From contig NZ_BDFE01000016.1 in the NCBI RefSeq assembly GCF_001748225.1, positions 124,001 through 188,000 of the forward strand: a stretch of DNA of 64,000 nucleotides, given 5' to 3'. The notes beneath the pieces were generated by a model. The model was not told the DNA's origin. It did not search any database and saw nothing but the letters and a program-made list of their open reading frames with translations. The translations under genes were made by a program, and so were the position numbers. Origin of the DNA: Desulfoplanes formicivorans (lineage in GTDB: Bacteria > Desulfobacterota > Desulfovibrionia > Desulfovibrionales > Desulfomicrobiaceae). Each line of letters opens with the position of its first letter. Position 1 is the first letter of the stretch. Below, in pieces: positions 6,791 to 46,022 of this stretch.

Positions 6791-9700
6791 TTAGTCATCC
6801 CCAAAAATCATGTAACCCACATCTTCGTTGTAATGGACCACTTCACTGTCCAGCGATGTTTCCTCATCGATATGAATGGCGGCCCTGGTTCCGGTCAGTT
6901 GATCCCGGCGGACATTGGATGGATTATCGCCGTTAAACGACTGCATTATCGCCAAAAAATCCGGACTGGAGGCAAACGCATGACTCCACGAGAGACCATA
7001 CCCAGAGCTGGTCACCACCGTGCCTGTCCTGCCCACAAGAAATTGCTTGCGGTTGACCACGCCGCTTGATGGCTCCCAGGCAATATACCCGACGGATTCG
7101 TTGCCATGAATCTGGTCCGCAGCCTCTTCTTCCTGAAGGGTACAGGTAAATCCCTGCTGGGAAATCCCAGACAAACGGATTACACAGGGAGCCGAATCAT
7201 TGTCTGTGTTCAGTGCAGCCATGACAACCGGAGCCTGCGTGCTCATCTGGGGAAACCAGACCTCTGTACCGACGTCACTGCTTTGGGACACCTCCGCCAT
7301 GCCGGCCTGGACCATGGTCCCGTCCTGCAGCACATAGGTGCCCTGCTCCATGACCATGTAGCTCACGGATTCCCTGCCATGGTCAGCGCTCTGGTACGCC
7401 CATTTCCGGATACCCATATCGCATCCCGTGGAGGTCACATTGCGAACCCGAATGGTGGCCGGCTCAGGATCGTCATGGCCCAAAGGACCCACAACCACAA
7501 CAGGTGACGTGTAGGTCCGTTTGAAATCCACATGGATCCAGGAACCATCCATATCGAGCACACCGGTTTCAAAAACCATGCTGGTCATGCTGGGTTCAGT
7601 GGAATTGTCATCAGCCGGATCATACCCATCCCTGATTTCAAGACCGTCGAGGTCCCCGTCATTGTCCGCATCAGGATCCAGAAGATTGATCAAGCCATCA
7701 CCATCTTCGTCCTCATTCCAGGCATCATCCCAATACGCCAGTTCGTCCGCATCGTTTAGGTGATCATTGTCCGAATCCGGATCCTGGGGATCGGTCCCGT
7801 ACACCTCTGTTTCCTGGGTATTGGACAGCCCGTCATCATCCTGATCCACCTGAAGGGAAGCATGGGTACATGCCAGATAGGCAATACGCTCGCCATAATG
7901 ATCCAATTCCTCATCCAAAGACTGTTCCTCCACAACAGCCAGGCCAACCGATGCAGCCCCTTTGCTGTCATGTCGCACATTGGCCGTGTTCGGGCCAACT
8001 ATCCCTTGCATGTTGGCAAGAAGCACCGGAGGCGAGACAAAGCCATCACCCAGGGAGCACTCCTGCATCTCATGGGTCAGCAATACGTCGGAAAGGCCGA
8101 CATCAAAGCGGAACCCGTTGAGCATACCGGCGAAGCTTTCCCAGGCAATGTATGAAACCGTCTCGGAAGCATGCTGCTGATCACCGGCCTCTTCTTCCTG
8201 GAGAAGATAGGTAAATCCCTCCTGACTCACCTGCTCGATTCTCCCCACAACAGCAGCCGCATCATTGTGAGATACAATGGAAGCAAATACCTGGGGAACT
8301 TCCTGAAACACCTGGTTGAAGACAAAAAACTGCCCGGGTCCGTCATGGACATCAATATTTTCGGCGCACAGGCGCGTGCCATCGGCCAGTTCGTATTTCC
8401 CGCTTTCCATGACCACGTATCCCAGCTGTTCAACTCCATGTTCCTGTGTCTGATAATCCCAGGTCTGGATACGGACATCACAACCGGTTGCATTGAGATT
8501 TCTGACCCGGACCAGGGCCGGAGCCTGATTGGCGGAGCCCAGGGGGCCTGCCACAAAAACGGGATCCGTGAACCCAGCGGTAAACTCCACATGGGTCCAG
8601 TCATCACCAACAGTGATTTCACCAACCTCGAACAGCACATCGGTACTGCTGGGGGACACGGACAAGGGATCGGCAGGATCCGTACCCATGAGCAGTTCAT
8701 ACCCGTCATGATCGCCATCATTATCCGCATCCGGATCAAGCAGATTGATGACACCGTCCTCATCAATATCATCGTCCCAACGATCTCCCCAATAGGCCAG
8801 TTCTTCACCATCCGGCAGACCGTCTTCATCGGTATCATCGTCGTCCGGCCGGGTTCCGAGCACATTGGTTTCCCGATCATTGTCAAGTCCGTCACGATCC
8901 AGATCCACGTCATCGGGATTATCGGAACAGGCGATAAAGCCAACCTCTTCCCTGACCACATGTTCCATTTCATCATCCAGGGACTGCTCTTCCTTGACCA
9001 TCAGGGTGATGGTGCCGGTATCTTTGGTCCCATACCGCAGATTGCACGGATTCACGCCCTGCATCGTCTGCATGTCGGCCACCACAGCGGGTATGCCTGC
9101 AAAAGTCCTGGTAAAGGTTGCCTCGCGCAACCCGTGATCCATGATCTTCCCGGTCCGGGCCACATTGACTGCCATATTGCCCACGATTCCGGAAAAAGGC
9201 TCCCAGGCAATGTAGGCGACCGTTTCAGCCCCGTGTATGCGAGTGCTTTGTTCTTCTTCCTGCAGGAGATAGGTGAATCCCTGTGGCGTAATCCCGGATA
9301 TTCTGCCCACAACAGGATTGGCTTCCCTTTCCGTGACAACAGATGCCATGACTACAGGTACAACGGAACAGGAATTGCCAAAACCAACCCAAAAGGACTC
9401 CCCGCCCTGAATGTCCTCATATCCCGCGCTGACCCGAGTCCCGTCATCAAGCACATAGTCACCATGCTCCATGACCATGTACGTCAAGGTCTCGGATCCA
9501 TGCACATCATCCTCGTACATCCATTCCTTGATCCGGACATCAAAGCCCGTCCCATTGACCTGGCGGATACTTACGGTTGCAGGCGCCTCATCCTGCAAGC
9601 TCATGGGGCCGGCAACAACCACCGGATCCCGGAAGGTTTTGGGAAACGTGACTCGTTTCCAGGTGCTGTCTACTGTTGTCTCGCCAAAGGCAAAAACAAT

Positions 9701-12700
9701 GGCTCCCTCATCAGGCGGAAAAGAATCCGCATCCTGGGGGTCATACCCGTACAGTTTTTCATACCCGTCCAGAAATCCATCCCCATCCGAGTCCGGGTCA
9801 ACGAGATTGACCAATCCGTCATCATCCGGATCAAGGTTCCAGGCATCCCCCCAGAAATCCCGTTCCTCGCCGTCAACAATGCCGTCGCCATCGGTATCGG
9901 GATTGGTGGCGTTGGTGCCGTAGATGGAGGTTTCGTCGTCGTTACGCAGGCCATCATGGTCCACGTCCTCATCGACCATGTACCGGGGCAGGACCATGTA
10001 CCCCACCTGCTCTCCCACATGATCCATTTCCGTGTCCAAGGACTGTTCTTCTTCAACCTTGATCTCCACGGTGCCGGACGTTTTGTTGCGATATCGAAGC
10101 GTAGCCGGGTTGTCGCCGTTAAAGGTCTGCATGGTAGCCAAAAATACCGGTGGCAGGGTAAAAGACTGGTCAAAGGTCATGACCTGAAAAGAGTGAGTCA
10201 CCTCCAAAGGATGTTTGAGCACGCTGAAAGCCGTACCATCCACGGTACCAGAAAATTCCTCCCAGGCGATATAGGCTACCCGTTCACCGGCATGATCCTG
10301 ATCCTCGGCCTCTTCTTCCTGGATCAGATAGTCAAAACCGGTTTTGGTCACACTTCCCACTCGTCCCACGGCTGGCGTGGCATCATTTTCCGTTATGATC
10401 GAGGAAAACACCACGGGAACGGAGTTGAATTGCTGATTAAACGCAAAACGAAGCAAACCGCTGCCATAGGTATCAATCATGCCGCCGCAAACCCGTGTTC
10501 CATCGGCCAAGGTGTATTTGCCCTGTTCCATGACAAAAAAGCCCACATCCTCCAAGGCGTGGGCACCGTCTTCATATGCCCACTCCCTGATGGCCATTTC
10601 ACACCCCGTGGCATTGACATTGCGGATTCTGACCACGCCGGGATCGTTTTCCGCAAAACTCAAGGGGCCGGCAATCACAACGGGCTGCACAAATGTACGC
10701 CCGAATTCCACCCGCTGCCACGTGGTCCCCAGCTGGACCTCTCCCATGGCAACAATGAGATCCAGCTGGTTGGGAGAGCTGGAATTGGCATCCCCGGGGT
10801 CATAACCGTTTTCGATTTCATAACCGTCCAGATCTCCATCTCCATCAGAATCCGGATCAAGAAGGTTGATTATCCCGTCATCATCTGCATCCTGGTCCCA
10901 TAATGTTCCCCAATACTCCAGCTCTTCACCGTCAAGCAGGCCGTCATTGTCAGAGTCCGGATACTCGGGGTTCGTCCCGTATATTACTTCCTGCACATTG
11001 GAGATGCCGTCTCCGTCACTGTCCACATCCTGGGGATCCGTGGAAAAGGCAAAATAGCCCACCGACTCCTTGCCGGGATGATCGGTTTCTTCATTGGCGG
11101 ACTGCTCCTCATCAATAAGCACCTCCATACCCGTCGTCGTTATGGAGGCAGCCCGCACATTGCACGGATCGGTCCCGAGCATGGTCTGCATATGGGCCAC
11201 GCACCCGGGTTGGGCGGCAAACGTCGTGGCAAAAGGAACCGAACTCAGCGCATCGGTAATGACCGTGTCCGTCCTTCCCACTTCAAAAGCCGTGTTGCCC
11301 ACGATGCCCGAAGACATCTCCCAGGCAATGTATGAGATAGTTTCCTGGGCATGGGTCTGATCGCTCTGCTCTTCTTCCTGCAAACCGTACTCGAACCCGT
11401 AGGCGGTAATGTCGGCAATCCGCCCCACAACGGCCTCACTCTCATTGACACTGTTGATGGTGGTGAACACCACGGGAACCTTGCTGAAAACCTGATTGTA
11501 ATCGATCTGCTGTCTGGCTCCCGAGGCAAGGGTGACAAATCTGTCCGCACATATGCGTACCCCTCCGTCCAGGGTGTACTTGCCCCGTTCCATGACCAGA
11601 TAGGACACGGTTTCCGCTGCATGCAGATTGTCCTGATACCCCCATTCCTGGACCATAATTTCAAATCCGGTACTTTCCACATTGCGGATGCGAAGGGTTG
11701 CCGGCTCATCCTCGGCAAGGCTCAAGGGCCCGGCCACAAGCACAGGGTCGTTGAATTCCTGTTTGAAATCCACCCGCTGCCATTCACCGGTCACGGTGAT
11801 CCGGCCGGCTTCAAAAACAGGCAGAACCGTGCCTTGGGAAACAGATGCCGGATCCAGGGGATCATACCCGTTATTGATCTCGTACCCATCCGTGTCGCCA
11901 TCATTGTCCGAATCCGGATCAAGAAGCTGGATGAGACCATCATGGTCATTGTCCTCATTCCATAAATCGCCCCAATAGGCGACTTCGTCCCCATCATCCA
12001 TACCGTCATCGTCCGTATCCATACGCGAAGGATCGGTTCCGTACACATTTCTCTCATCCGAATCCGAAATGCCGTCCCGATCGGCATCCACTCCGGATTT
12101 TTTGGAAAAAAGGGCTATATAGCCCAGATCCTCGGCCTTGTGACTGACCTCGGCATCAAGGGAACGCTCTTCCTGTGCATACAGGGAAATGGCTGATGCA
12201 CTTCGCTGATCCCATCTTAAAGTACAGGGATCTGATCCCGCAAAACTCTGCAGCGTACCAACCAAGACCGGTGTACCGTCAAAAGGCGTTACAAAATTCA
12301 GGGAAGACGGGATATGGGTAATGGCTGCATCCACACGGCGCACTTCATAAGAAATATCGTGCAATGTACCGTTGGAAGGTTCCCAGGCGATATAGGCAAT
12401 CCGTTCAACATCATGCACCTGATCATGACCTTCCTGCTCCTGCATCTTGCAGGTAAATCCCCAGTTGTGGACGTCTTCTATGCGCAACGAAACGCCCTGG
12501 CCATCATGGGTGGAACTCACACTGGCCATAACAACAGGCGTCACGGCAAAGGTGTAGGCAAAAAGGACCTCGTCAAAATCAACACATTGATCCGTATCCA
12601 CATATCCGGCACTGATCATGGTTCCATCGTGCAGGGAATAGGTTCCCTTTTCCATGACCATATACCCTACCTGCTCAGGACCGTGATCGTCGGCCAGATA

Positions 12701-13618
12701 ATCCCAGGCCTGAACGCGGATTTCACATCCCGTTGCATTGACGTTTCGAATGCGGACAACAGCCGGGTCCGCATCGCTGGTCCCCATGGGGCTGACCACC
12801 ACAACGGGGTCAACATACGTGCGCTCAAAATGAAGGCGTTTCCACTCATAATCGGCAGCAAATTCGCCCGCCTCCAGAGGAGGAAGATTCGACTGATCAA
12901 GGACATCCTTGAGAGGCCAATACCAGGTGTCGGCTATTTTCTGATACCCGGCTTCCGATGGATGCCGCATGTCGTAAAAATAGGGATATTCCGCATCATA
13001 ATTCAGCACATGCTCCATGTTCACCAGAGCCAGGTTACTGCCTGCATCAATGCGTGACTGAATCATCTCGGCCAGTAAGTCATTGAACTGTGAGGTGTAG
13101 GTCCTGTAGGGTTCTGCTCCATCCTCATCCACCAGGTTGATGATCTGGGCCACGAGCACCATGACCTGAGAATGATAGCGCTCGATTTCATCCAGAATGT
13201 TTTCCACTTCCGAGACAATATCTTCCGGGGATTGATGTGCGGTAATGTCATTGGTTCCCACATGCAAAAGAACAATATCCGCAGGATTGCTTTGCAGCCA
13301 ATCATAGATATTGTCGGCCAGTTCATCGGCCGTCCGACCCCCATAGGATTCATGATCAGGATCTTCAAACCGCCCGTCCTGTTGCAGCCCCACAAAATCG
13401 ATATCATAACCTTCCTGACGCAAGGCTTCATACAGGGGGCGTCTGTAACCGTTGTAGAACATGCCATCACTGTCCGACTCACCGTATCCCCGTGTAATGG
13501 AGTCGCCAAGGGGCATGATGCTATACGCAGGTGAGTAAAAGGCCATGGCTCTGAAAATACAAACAAATTGCAATAAACAGAACAGACTCACCATTTTTAC
13601 GGAGCACAATCGATTCAT
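6791..13618 (-). CDS. giant secreted protein: SGNH hydrolase plus 18 lectin-like units with calcium-binding linkers
   Basis: The protein has 2,275 residues. A signal peptide (about 1-27) precedes an SGNH/GDSL hydrolase domain (about 33-245): GDSI with Ser40, a block-II glycine near 94, GTND with Asn123 and DxxH ending at His219. Six repeats of roughly 330-340 residues follow. Each has three units of about 75 residues of the form PVVxxxxxx...RxRNVxxTGFxxxxxExxxxDxxHxxExVxYIxxE, resembling H-type lectin or adhesin beta-sandwiches. Five linkers between repeats carry DxDxDG-type acidic loops like thrombospondin type 3 calcium sites. The chain ends within the last lectin-like unit, with no sorting signal. 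ATG 13618 is preceded by GGAGGG at good spacing. A role as a calcium-stabilised carbohydrate esterase or adhesin is inferred; the substrate is unknown. Confidence 0.88.
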   Translation of the reverse strand: MNRLCSVKMVSLFCLLQFVCIFRAMAFYSPAYSIMPLGDSITRGYGESDSDGMFYNGYRRPLYEALRQEGYDIDFVGLQQDGRFEDPDHESYGGRTADELADNIYDWLQSNPADIVLLHVGTNDITAHQSPEDIVSEVENILDEIERYHSQVMVLVAQIINLVDEDGAEPYRTYTSQFNDLLAEMIQSRIDAGSNLALVNMEHVLNYDAEYPYFYDMRHPSEAGYQKIADTWYWPLKDVLDQSNLPPLEAGEFAADYEWKRLHFERTYVDPVVVVSPMGTSDADPAVVRIRNVNATGCEIRVQAWDYLADDHGPEQVGYMVMEKGTYSLHDGTMISAGYVDTDQCVDFDEVLFAYTFAVTPVVMASVSSTHDGQGVSLRIEDVHNWGFTCKMQEQEGHDQVHDVERIAYIAWEPSNGTLHDISYEVRRVDAAITHIPSSLNFVTPFDGTPVLVGTLQSFAGSDPCTLRWDQRSASAISLYAQEERSLDAEVSHKAEDLGYIALFSKKSGVDADRDGISDSDERNVYGTDPSRMDTDDDGMDDGDEVAYWGDLWNEDNDHDGLIQLLDPDSDNDGDTDGYEINNGYDPLDPASVSQGTVLPVFEAGRITVTGEWQRVDFKQEFNDPVLVAGPLSLAEDEPATLRIRNVESTGFEIMVQEWGYQDNLHAAETVSYLVMERGKYTLDGGVRICADRFVTLASGARQQIDYNQVFSKVPVVFTTINSVNESEAVVGRIADITAYGFEYGLQEEEQSDQTHAQETISYIAWEMSSGIVGNTAFEVGRTDTVITDALSSVPFATTFAAQPGCVAHMQTMLGTDPCNVRAASITTTGMEVLIDEEQSANEETDHPGKESVGYFAFSTDPQDVDSDGDGISNVQEVIYGTNPEYPDSDNDGLLDGEELEYWGTLWDQDADDDGIINLLDPDSDGDGDLDGYEIENGYDPGDANSSSPNQLDLIVAMGEVQLGTTWQRVEFGRTFVQPVVIAGPLSFAENDPGVVRIRNVNATGCEMAIREWAYEDGAHALEDVGFFVMEQGKYTLADGTRVCGGMIDTYGSGLLRFAFNQQFNSVPVVFSSIITENDATPAVGRVGSVTKTGFDYLIQEEEAEDQDHAGERVAYIAWEEFSGTVDGTAFSVLKHPLEVTHSFQVMTFDQSFTLPPVFLATMQTFNGDNPATLRYRNKTSGTVEIKVEEEQSLDTEMDHVGEQVGYMVLPRYMVDEDVDHDGLRNDDETSIYGTNATNPDTDGDGIVDGEERDFWGDAWNLDPDDDGLVNLVDPDSDGDGFLDGYEKLYGYDPQDADSFPPDEGAIVFAFGETTVDSTWKRVTFPKTFRDPVVVAGPMSLQDEAPATVSIRQVNGTGFDVRIKEWMYEDDVHGSETLTYMVMEHGDYVLDDGTRVSAGYEDIQGGESFWVGFGNSCSVVPVVMASVVTEREANPVVGRISGITPQGFTYLLQEEEQSTRIHGAETVAYIAWEPFSGIVGNMAVNVARTGKIMDHGLREATFTRTFAGIPAVVADMQTMQGVNPCNLRYGTKDTGTITLMVKEEQSLDDEMEHVVREEVGFIACSDNPDDVDLDRDGLDNDRETNVLGTRPDDDDTDEDGLPDGEELAYWGDRWDDDIDEDGVINLLDPDADNDGDHDGYELLMGTDPADPLSVSPSSTDVLFEVGEITVGDDWTHVEFTAGFTDPVFVAGPLGSANQAPALVRVRNLNATGCDVRIQTWDYQTQEHGVEQLGYVVMESGKYELADGTRLCAENIDVHDGPGQFFVFNQVFQEVPQVFASIVSHNDAAAVVGRIEQVSQEGFTYLLQEEEAGDQQHASETVSYIAWESFAGMLNGFRFDVGLSDVLLTHEMQECSLGDGFVSPPVLLANMQGIVGPNTANVRHDSKGAASVGLAVVEEQSLDEELDHYGERIAYLACTHASLQVDQDDDGLSNTQETEVYGTDPQDPDSDNDHLNDADELAYWDDAWNEDEDGDGLINLLDPDADNDGDLDGLEIRDGYDPADDNSTEPSMTSMVFETGVLDMDGSWIHVDFKRTYTSPVVVVGPLGHDDPEPATIRVRNVTSTGCDMGIRKWAYQSADHGRESVSYMVMEQGTYVLQDGTMVQAGMAEVSQSSDVGTEVWFPQMSTQAPVVMAALNTDNDSAPCVIRLSGISQQGFTCTLQEEEAADQIHGNESVGYIAWEPSSGVVNRKQFLVGRTGTVVTSSGYGLSWSHAFASSPDFLAIMQSFNGDNPSNVRRDQLTGTRAAIHIDEETSLDSEVVHYNEDVGYMIFGDD

Positions 13619-13621
13619 CAA

Positions 13622-13809
13622 CCCTCCAGGTGCATGCGGAATCGTTTTTCATGAAAACAGGTAGCGACATACGTATCCGTACATTCGCAGGAACCAAAAA
13701 TGTCCTGTTTCCTGGTAGACAAGGAATATCCGAAGACCTGCTTGCATTTTTGTCTCCAAAATCAACATATTTTTTTGTTTGTTTTTCAAACTAATTGCGC
13801 AACCCATAC
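13622..13809. other. upstream region of the large repeat protein gene
   Basis: This holds the leader of the minus-strand gene starting at 13618. No convincing sigma-70 or sigma-54 promoter could be picked out. A 32-codon minus-strand open frame (13649-13747) has a GGAGA ribosome-binding-like sequence 4-5 bases before its ATG; it could be a leader peptide or chance. Confidence 0.3.
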
Positions 13810-43660: not shown

Positions 43661-43756
43661 GGAGAGGTAGCGAAGTCCGGCCGTAACGCGCTCGACTCGA
43701 AATCGAGTTAGGGGTTAACAGCTCCTACGTGGGTTCGAATCCCACCCTCTCCGCCA
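43661..43756 (+). tRNA. tRNA-Ser(CGA)
   Basis: A class II tRNA with acceptor stem GGAGAGG / CCTCTCC, discriminator G and encoded CCA (43754-43756). The anticodon stem CTCGA / TCGAG encloses the loop CTCGAAA, so the anticodon is CGA. A long variable arm (GGGGTTAACAGCTCC) and the T-arm GTGGGTTCGAATCCCAC agree with serine identity. A terminator follows at once. Confidence 0.97.
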
Positions 43757-45633: not shown

Positions 45634-46022
45634 GGGGGCGCACTGGTTTCGACGGGGATAGTTGAGGCCGGGGTCGCAGGTCGAGGTGCTGTGAGGTCCT
45701 CGTTAAACACACAGCAAACCATTAATTGCCAACAATGACAATTACGCTTACGCAATGGCTGCCTAGCAGTTGTTCGTAACACTGGCAGCTTCGGCTGCCA
45801 CGTCCCGCCGGCTGACGCCTGATACGCTGAACGGGGCGCCATCTCATCAGGCTGGTTGGTGATTCACGTCTTAGGGATCACCAATGAGATCTTACTCAGA
45901 CTGGATTTCGGGCCGCCGGGGCAGGGGCTCTCCCGAAATCGAGATGAAAACCTGTCCTAAGCCTGTAGAAGCTCCGAGCCAAGTATTTTCGGACGCGGGT
46001 TCGATTCCCGCCGCCTCCACCA
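45634..46022 (+). ncRNA. ssrA: transfer-messenger RNA (tmRNA)
   Basis: tmRNA rescues stalled ribosomes by adding a degradation tag. The 5' end GGGGGCGCACTGGTTTCGACGGGG is conserved in key positions and pairs with the 3' end CGCCTCC-A-CCA (acceptor stem 45634-45640 with 46012-46018). The tRNA-like T-arm GCGGGTTCGATTCCCGC is intact. The tag frame (45728-45766) reads ANNDNYAYAMAA and stops with TAG. The gene is 389 bases. Its 3' end borders the accessory region, as is common for ssrA, a frequent integration site. Confidence 0.97.

Follow-up and report, generated by a model that had tools for sequence, protein, structure and literature searches.

Three diverged H-type-lectin-like units, denoted here A, B, and C and fused head to tail in one polypeptide, quite probably constitute a general, so far undescribed, single-chain form of the H-type lectin trimer that derives from one fusion of three subunits. 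This 265-residue cassette appears to have spread through Desulfobacterota, Gammaproteobacteria, Alphaproteobacteria, haloarchaea, and a haloarchaeal tailed virus, becoming attached to esterases, proteases, FN3, PKD, or cadherin stalks, and other partners, and including a subfamily with a changed strand order in the third unit. The most multiplied example that we found, with six cassettes, is encoded in the window analyzed here, a whole stretch of 64,000 nucleotides from Desulfoplanes formicivorans. In this protein, which we call the esterase-lectin, the three units A, B, and C would function together, probably as a trimer within one chain. The triad itself is widespread elsewhere; what is unusual in the esterase-lectin is the presence of six triads on an esterase of the carbohydrate esterase family 3 (CE3) type. 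All the parts are of known kinds, whereas the one-chain triad and its sixfold multiplication on a CE3-type enzyme are undescribed in the open-licence literature searched, where we found no account of triad H-type lectins or of their esterase fusions.

Layout of the esterase-lectin

The gene lies on the minus strand, from the ATG at 13618 to the stop codon at 6791-6793, exactly where an earlier, sequence-only reading had placed it, and encodes a product of 2275 aa. A Shine-Dalgarno sequence, GGAGGG (13622..13627), can be read directly just 5' of the ATG. The product consists, in this order, of a signal peptide, a single SGNH esterase domain, and six blocks of ~265 aa, with five Asp-rich, TSP3-type linkers between them; all the features located below are on the minus strand. 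The signal peptide (residues 1-26; 13541..13618) shows a basic start, a hydrophobic core, and an A-x-A motif, is probably cut after AMA, and recurs with the same layout in the same-genus homologue discussed below.

Pfam assigned the protein to H_lectin (PF09458) with an E-value of 3.9e-41 and 139.5 bits, against a gathering score of 24, with 7 stretches passing individually, and also recovered GDSL lipase (5.5e-17) and TSP3_bac (2.1e-11 over 9 stretches). The first block (units 1A-1B-1C), delimited by the count of core motifs and the unit alignment, occupies 12095..12886. The unit alignment likewise delimits block 2 (2A-2B-2C; 11033..11824), which was modelled with AlphaFold2, block 3 (3A-3B-3C; 9974..10762), block 4 (4A-4B-4C; 8915..9703), block 5 (5A-5B-5C; 7853..8641), and block 6 (6A-6B-6C; 6794..7582), the C-terminal end of the protein, immediately ahead of the stop codon. 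Linkers 1 through 5, identified by D-x-D-x-D-G motifs and by Pfam TSP3_bac, are located at 11825..12094, 10763..11032, 9704..9973, 8642..8914, and 7583..7852, respectively. With 20 D-x-D-x-D-G motifs in the protein and TSP3-type motifs in every linker, the proposal of calcium-loop linkers between the repeats is borne out; judging from these motifs, the linkers are predicted to bind calcium and would be stiffened by it.

The protein terminates in unit 6C and, as had been noticed previously, carries no C-terminal sorting signal of the PEP-CTERM/exosortase type (motif, transmembrane segment, and basic tail), although an exosortase is encoded in the genome. Rfam yielded no match within the gene. 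A long antisense open reading frame at 8171-10903 on the plus strand (910 codons) was considered and rejected as a gene; it is regarded as a by-product of codon usage in the repeats it mirrors, and nothing else speaks for it.

The N-terminal domain (residues 30-240; 12899..13531), which was delimited by Pfam, by matches of its sequence and model to the CE3 enzyme of Clostridium thermocellum (2vpt), and by motif positions, is, by sequence and modelled fold, nearest to CE3 and is predicted to be an esterase. The sequence match to 2vpt has an E-value of 4.2e-24 at ~30% identity, with fungal CE3 enzymes next, and the model superimposes on 2vpt over the whole domain length (187 residues, 2.7 A, Z 18.8), followed by the fungal CE3 enzyme of Talaromyces (5b5s; Z 17.0) and then by other SGNH enzymes (Z no higher than 15.7). 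The model rests on two sequences and is of modest confidence, with block means of 37-90. The active-site motifs pointed out in the sequence-only reading are all in place: Ser40, Gly94, Asn123, and Asp216/His219 (GDSI, GGRT, GTND, and DMRH) are present, align with the corresponding residues of the solved CE3 enzyme, and are kept in the homologue. CE3 acetyl esterases (2vpt, 5b5s) are thus the best match of this domain by both sequence and fold, and our searches turned up no CE3 domain joined to lectin blocks of this kind in any organism other than Desulfoplanes.

The block as a probable counterpart of the H-type lectin trimer

The AlphaFold2 model of one block (block 2, with 66 aligned sequences) has a pLDDT of 96.1 and a pTM of 0.93, and comprises three six-stranded sandwiches whose relative placement is confident. 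A profile of unit B retrieved the agglutinins of Helix pomatia and Helix aspersa (HPA and HAA) as the best PDB matches, with an E-value of 0.008, so that the HMM search proposed along with the sequence-only reading, taken together with the PF09458 match, came out in its favor. Structural matches of unit B (Z 2.7-5.6) include R-pyocin feet, AP22 gp53, discoidins I and II, HPA, HAA, SLL-2, LKA1, and TcpB; the superposition on HPA and HAA covers 77-79 residues at 2.1 A, with middling Z-scores of 4.6-4.8. In the structural comparison envisaged by the same reading, the block model matches H-type lectin folds at these Z-scores; Foldseek comparison of the block with the PDB produced no match below an E-value of 0.001, all E-values being above 0.03 and the top rows being low-probability noise. 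Because the Z-scores of single units stay below 8 and the Foldseek E-values against the PDB exceed 0.03, the assignment of the H-lectin fold leans on the Pfam and profile matches. With H-type lectin folds matched, the outcome that the reading had named as fatal to itself, units unrelated to any carbohydrate-binding fold, did not materialize. The second such outcome, an active-site Ser, Asn, and His that fail to come together, was likewise not encountered, as judged from the match to CE3 along the entire enzyme domain and from the aligned motifs. A structural match of the block to a single-chain dUTPase was judged to be due to chance. A predicted structure of viral origin aligns with the block in full at a TM-score of 0.83, and the protein of Halorubrum tailed virus 25 described below may be of the same kind.

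The units share with the H-type lectins (HPA/HAA, the lectin domain of discoidin I/II, and SLL-2; PF09458) a family-level profile match, the six-stranded beta-sandwich, and the loop layout; however, the known lectins have one unit per chain and form homotrimers, whereas the esterase-lectin has three diverged units fused in one chain, six times over. The block, therefore, is not a classical homotrimer of identical one-unit chains: with three diverged units per chain and a one-chain trimer as the likely arrangement, it would work like, rather than be, a classical H-lectin assembly. Model confidence together with the fold matches suggests threefold packing, which would make the block a single-chain counterpart of the H-type lectin homotrimer. 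Snail lectins, the discoidins of slime moulds, and phage fibres commonly have homotrimeric lectin heads. A one-chain version, in which each of the three faces evolves on its own, would illustrate the path from a symmetric trimer to an asymmetric one. Such a triad would also make a handy multivalent glycan-binding reagent encoded by a single gene, and would tell annotators to expect bacterial H_lectin matches in threes.

The invariant His and Glu, along with acidic neighbours, sit in the loop that joins strands 5 and 6, and this acidic/His loop is found in 18/18 units. It is predicted to occupy the place of the distal sugar-binding loops of the lectins. In a comparison aimed at the GalNAc-contact residues of HPA, the profile alignment stops short of the distal loop; the loop here has the form E-x-E...H-x2-E. 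The R-pyocin foot, a trimeric discoidin-like lectin, holds an ion in the cavity of an acidic distal loop (PMC6363177, PMC6116203), to which the conserved E/H loop of the esterase-lectin is comparable; by analogy, a metal-assisted site of this type in the block loops is plausible. R-pyocin fibre tips, AP22 gp53, LKA1, and phi297 tailspikes share the fold of the esterase-lectin unit (Z 4.1-5.6), but in phage and pyocin fibres three identical long chains form the trimer, with neither an esterase nor the A/B/C specialization. The presence, among the closest folds, of R-pyocin and phage fibre tips whose targets are surface polysaccharides might hint at a factor of defence or competition directed against the surface glycans of other cells or against phage receptors. 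However, the enzyme is an esterase rather than a lytic one, and none of the neighbours examined is a gene for a toxin, lysis, or immunity, so that this role appears highly improbable.

Among solved chains, the best in-order alignment with the whole block is that of the three-module C-terminal domain of PCSK9 (model residues 4-263; 182 residues, 5.0 A, Z 4.8). This domain, like the A-B-C block, consists of three beta modules in one chain, but the two have no sequence relation, and the PCSK9 modules are different, Cys-rich ones that belong to an animal protein binder. The PCSK9 domain mimics a trimer, and its homology to resistin was reportedly described by Hampton in 2007. Another protein binder among the fold matches is TcpB, a homotrimer with an H-type-lectin-like domain, in which the trimer interface holds the N terminus of TcpF (PMC9565799). 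These parallels allow for a structural matrix protein in which the blocks bind no sugar and instead contact other proteins or act as a scaffold, in the manner of the C-terminal domain of PCSK9 or the pilin trimer of TcpB. We regard this possibility as rather improbable: the acidic/His loop is conserved in all the units at the position of the distal binding loop of the lectins, most of the closest folds bind polysaccharide, and the fused enzyme is a relative of carbohydrate esterases.

Distribution and origin of the A-B-C cassette

The relatives gathered with a block profile comprise 73 loci in genome contigs, plus matches in plasmid records, and block relatives were found in 17/297 genomes of the phylum. 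When type-specific unit models were applied to each open frame independently, 62/70 distinct complete frames showed a number of units that is a multiple of three, nearly all of the form (ABC)n, with n = 1, 2, 4, or 6; the sampling began from a triad profile, so that a bias towards triads is possible, but the method itself does not force such counts. All the matches in plasmid records (20/20) cover at least 93% of a block. Where the rule fails, the reasons are mostly apparent: a probable frameshift splits one block at L017, a spurious fragment is present at L026 and a truncated block at L025, and the third unit is diverged at L087 and, among the loci of the phylum that were added later, at L108 and L113, or is of the variant form described below at L088, L105-L107, L109, and L110. 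The exception left over is L049, with a second block that has no recognizable A unit.

In several families of the phylum, the third unit has a variant strand order, 1-2-5-6-3-4, with strands 5-6 and their E/H loop ahead of strands 3-4, and the proteins that carry it often end directly after strand 4 (L088:81-536; L105:1302-2621 and L106:1333-2703, both on the minus strand; L107:1248-2351; L109:1-915, minus strand; L110:1252-3325).

A tree of 348 bacterial and archaeal units resolves A, B, and C into three perfectly separated, monophyletic groups (support 0.94, 0.95, and 0.98, respectively), and this separation holds across Desulfobacterota, Gammaproteobacteria, and haloarchaea. It appears most likely, therefore, that the triad arose once, ahead of its spread, and has since travelled as a single cassette. 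In Haladaptatus, the block follows an S8 protease on its C-terminal side, and in Thioclava it is part of an M10-type metallopeptidase (L006, L007), so that the cassette serves different secreted enzymes. Among phage records, the block search matched only Halorubrum tailed virus 25 (NC_062759.1; L100:2605-6330), in which a diverged triad opens a laminin-G protein near the gene for the terminase small subunit, and scans of viral contigs with the blocks and with the SGNH domain detected no relatives. When 297 genomes from the class were searched with the SGNH domain and block 1, blocks turned up only in the genome of D. formicivorans itself, along with SGNH-only matches in five other genomes, one clear and four weak; with blocks restricted in this way, the SGNH-block fusion looks confined to Desulfoplanes.

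Block multiplication in the esterase gene

The core motif H-x2/3-E-x-V-x-Y occurs exactly 18 times, in six groups of three, which agrees with the 18 lectin-like units counted originally, and the units cluster by type. The number of repeats, six, stands as well, but their period is 353-354 aa (a block of 265 and a linker of ~88), not the ~335 residues first given. In the aligned units, the His, the next Glu, the Tyr/Phe, and a Pro are present in 18/18 and an Arg in 17/18; the proposed unit core holds, accordingly, for its H, E, and Y/F positions, but the Gly of its 'TGF/C' element is kept in just 13/18 units.

Identity between units of the same type is 46% for A, 42% for B, and 34% for C, compared with 21% between types, both within a repeat and across repeats. 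The values of 34-46% against 21% thus uphold the claim that units within a repeat differ from each other more than from their counterparts in other repeats. Tandem Repeats Finder detected no DNA repeat in the gene, because the copies are only ~40% alike, with pairwise identities of 36-46% among the six blocks. Growth by whole-block duplication, as initially suggested, is supported, with the amendment that the A/B/C split is, judging from the sequences, far older than the block duplications of this gene.

The same layout, namely, an SGNH domain with all motifs kept, TSP3 linkers, and A-B-C blocks, recurs in the homologue of Desulfoplanes sp. STF2_178 (L016/L089), but its blocks number four rather than six, the expansion of blocks having apparently been separate. 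In the tree of blocks, blocks 3-6 of the window protein cluster together (0.89), as do the later blocks of the homologue (0.92), whereas the first blocks of both pair with each other (0.77). From this grouping, with its moderate supports, it would appear that the block number of the esterase grew, or was homogenized, independently in the two species. The blocks of a two-block paralogue, in contrast, pair one-to-one between the two Desulfoplanes species (0.99 and 1.0).

Genome context and possible function

The esterase-lectin gene stands alone, its neighbours being genes for an alkaline phosphatase and RelA/SpoT rather than for exopolysaccharide (EPS) synthesis. In the species of the homologue, an adjoining convergent open frame resembles a polysaccharide N-deacetylase.

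The one paralogue in the D. formicivorans genome, an FN3-like domain with two A-B-C blocks (contig C16, ~52-54 kb; L005:7943-10288), presents a different context. It adjoins genes for a TIGR03016-like outer-membrane protein, an XrtA-type chain-length determinant, a tyrosine kinase, an XrtA-associated ATPase, and a sigma-54 regulator; the kinase-ATPase-regulator synteny is kept in the second species, and the chain-length gene adjoins the paralogue in D. formicivorans. Genes resembling that of the XrtA-associated ATPase are found near block genes at five further loci by raw count. Contig C17 (L122:60-11854) carries an EPS locus of the XrtD/VPLPA exosortase type, with glycosyltransferases, a WecA-like transferase, a PrsT-like TPR protein, and an Acyl_transf_3 gene that is one of only two in the genome; the chain-length, kinase, and ATPase genes of such an exosortase system are on C16.

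On balance, we consider it fairly likely that the esterase-lectin is secreted and serves as a multivalent esterase that binds polysaccharide through trimer-like heads, sugar binding and esterase activity both being predictions. More tentatively, its target might be the cell's own acylated, exosortase-type EPS, the most likely candidate in view of the position of the paralogue inside an EPS locus and of the acyltransferase gene that the exosortase EPS cluster includes. An esterase anchored by lectins would suit an EPS that is acylated, a circumstantial but testable link between the two. Under this scenario, the protein would be exported via its signal peptide, and calcium bound by the TSP3 linkers would stiffen them. 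Each block, with its three diverged subunits fused head to tail, would fold as an H-type homotrimer does and present its loops together, so that six such heads in series could provide high avidity for a repeating polysaccharide and hold the enzyme on the polymer. The N-terminal CE3-like domain could then strip ester groups, most likely O-acetyl, near the anchored site.

The same activities might serve attachment or scavenging, with the blocks binding polysaccharide of foreign origin, from algae, plants, or sediment, which the CE3 domain would de-acetylate to open it to attack by other enzymes. The presence of the C. thermocellum enzyme and a fungal acetyl esterase among the CE3 matches is compatible with such a role, as is the joining of the block to secreted proteases in haloarchaea and Thioclava, where it positions different enzymes. 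Nevertheless, we found no glycoside-hydrolase or polysaccharide-uptake genes among the neighbours examined, and the paralogue lies within a locus for EPS biosynthesis, which makes foreign polysaccharide a less than likely target, albeit one to be kept in mind next to the cell's own EPS.

Elsewhere in the window, there are a tmRNA (45634-46022; tag ANNDNYAYAMAA) and a tRNA-Ser(cga) (43661-43756), both ordinary.
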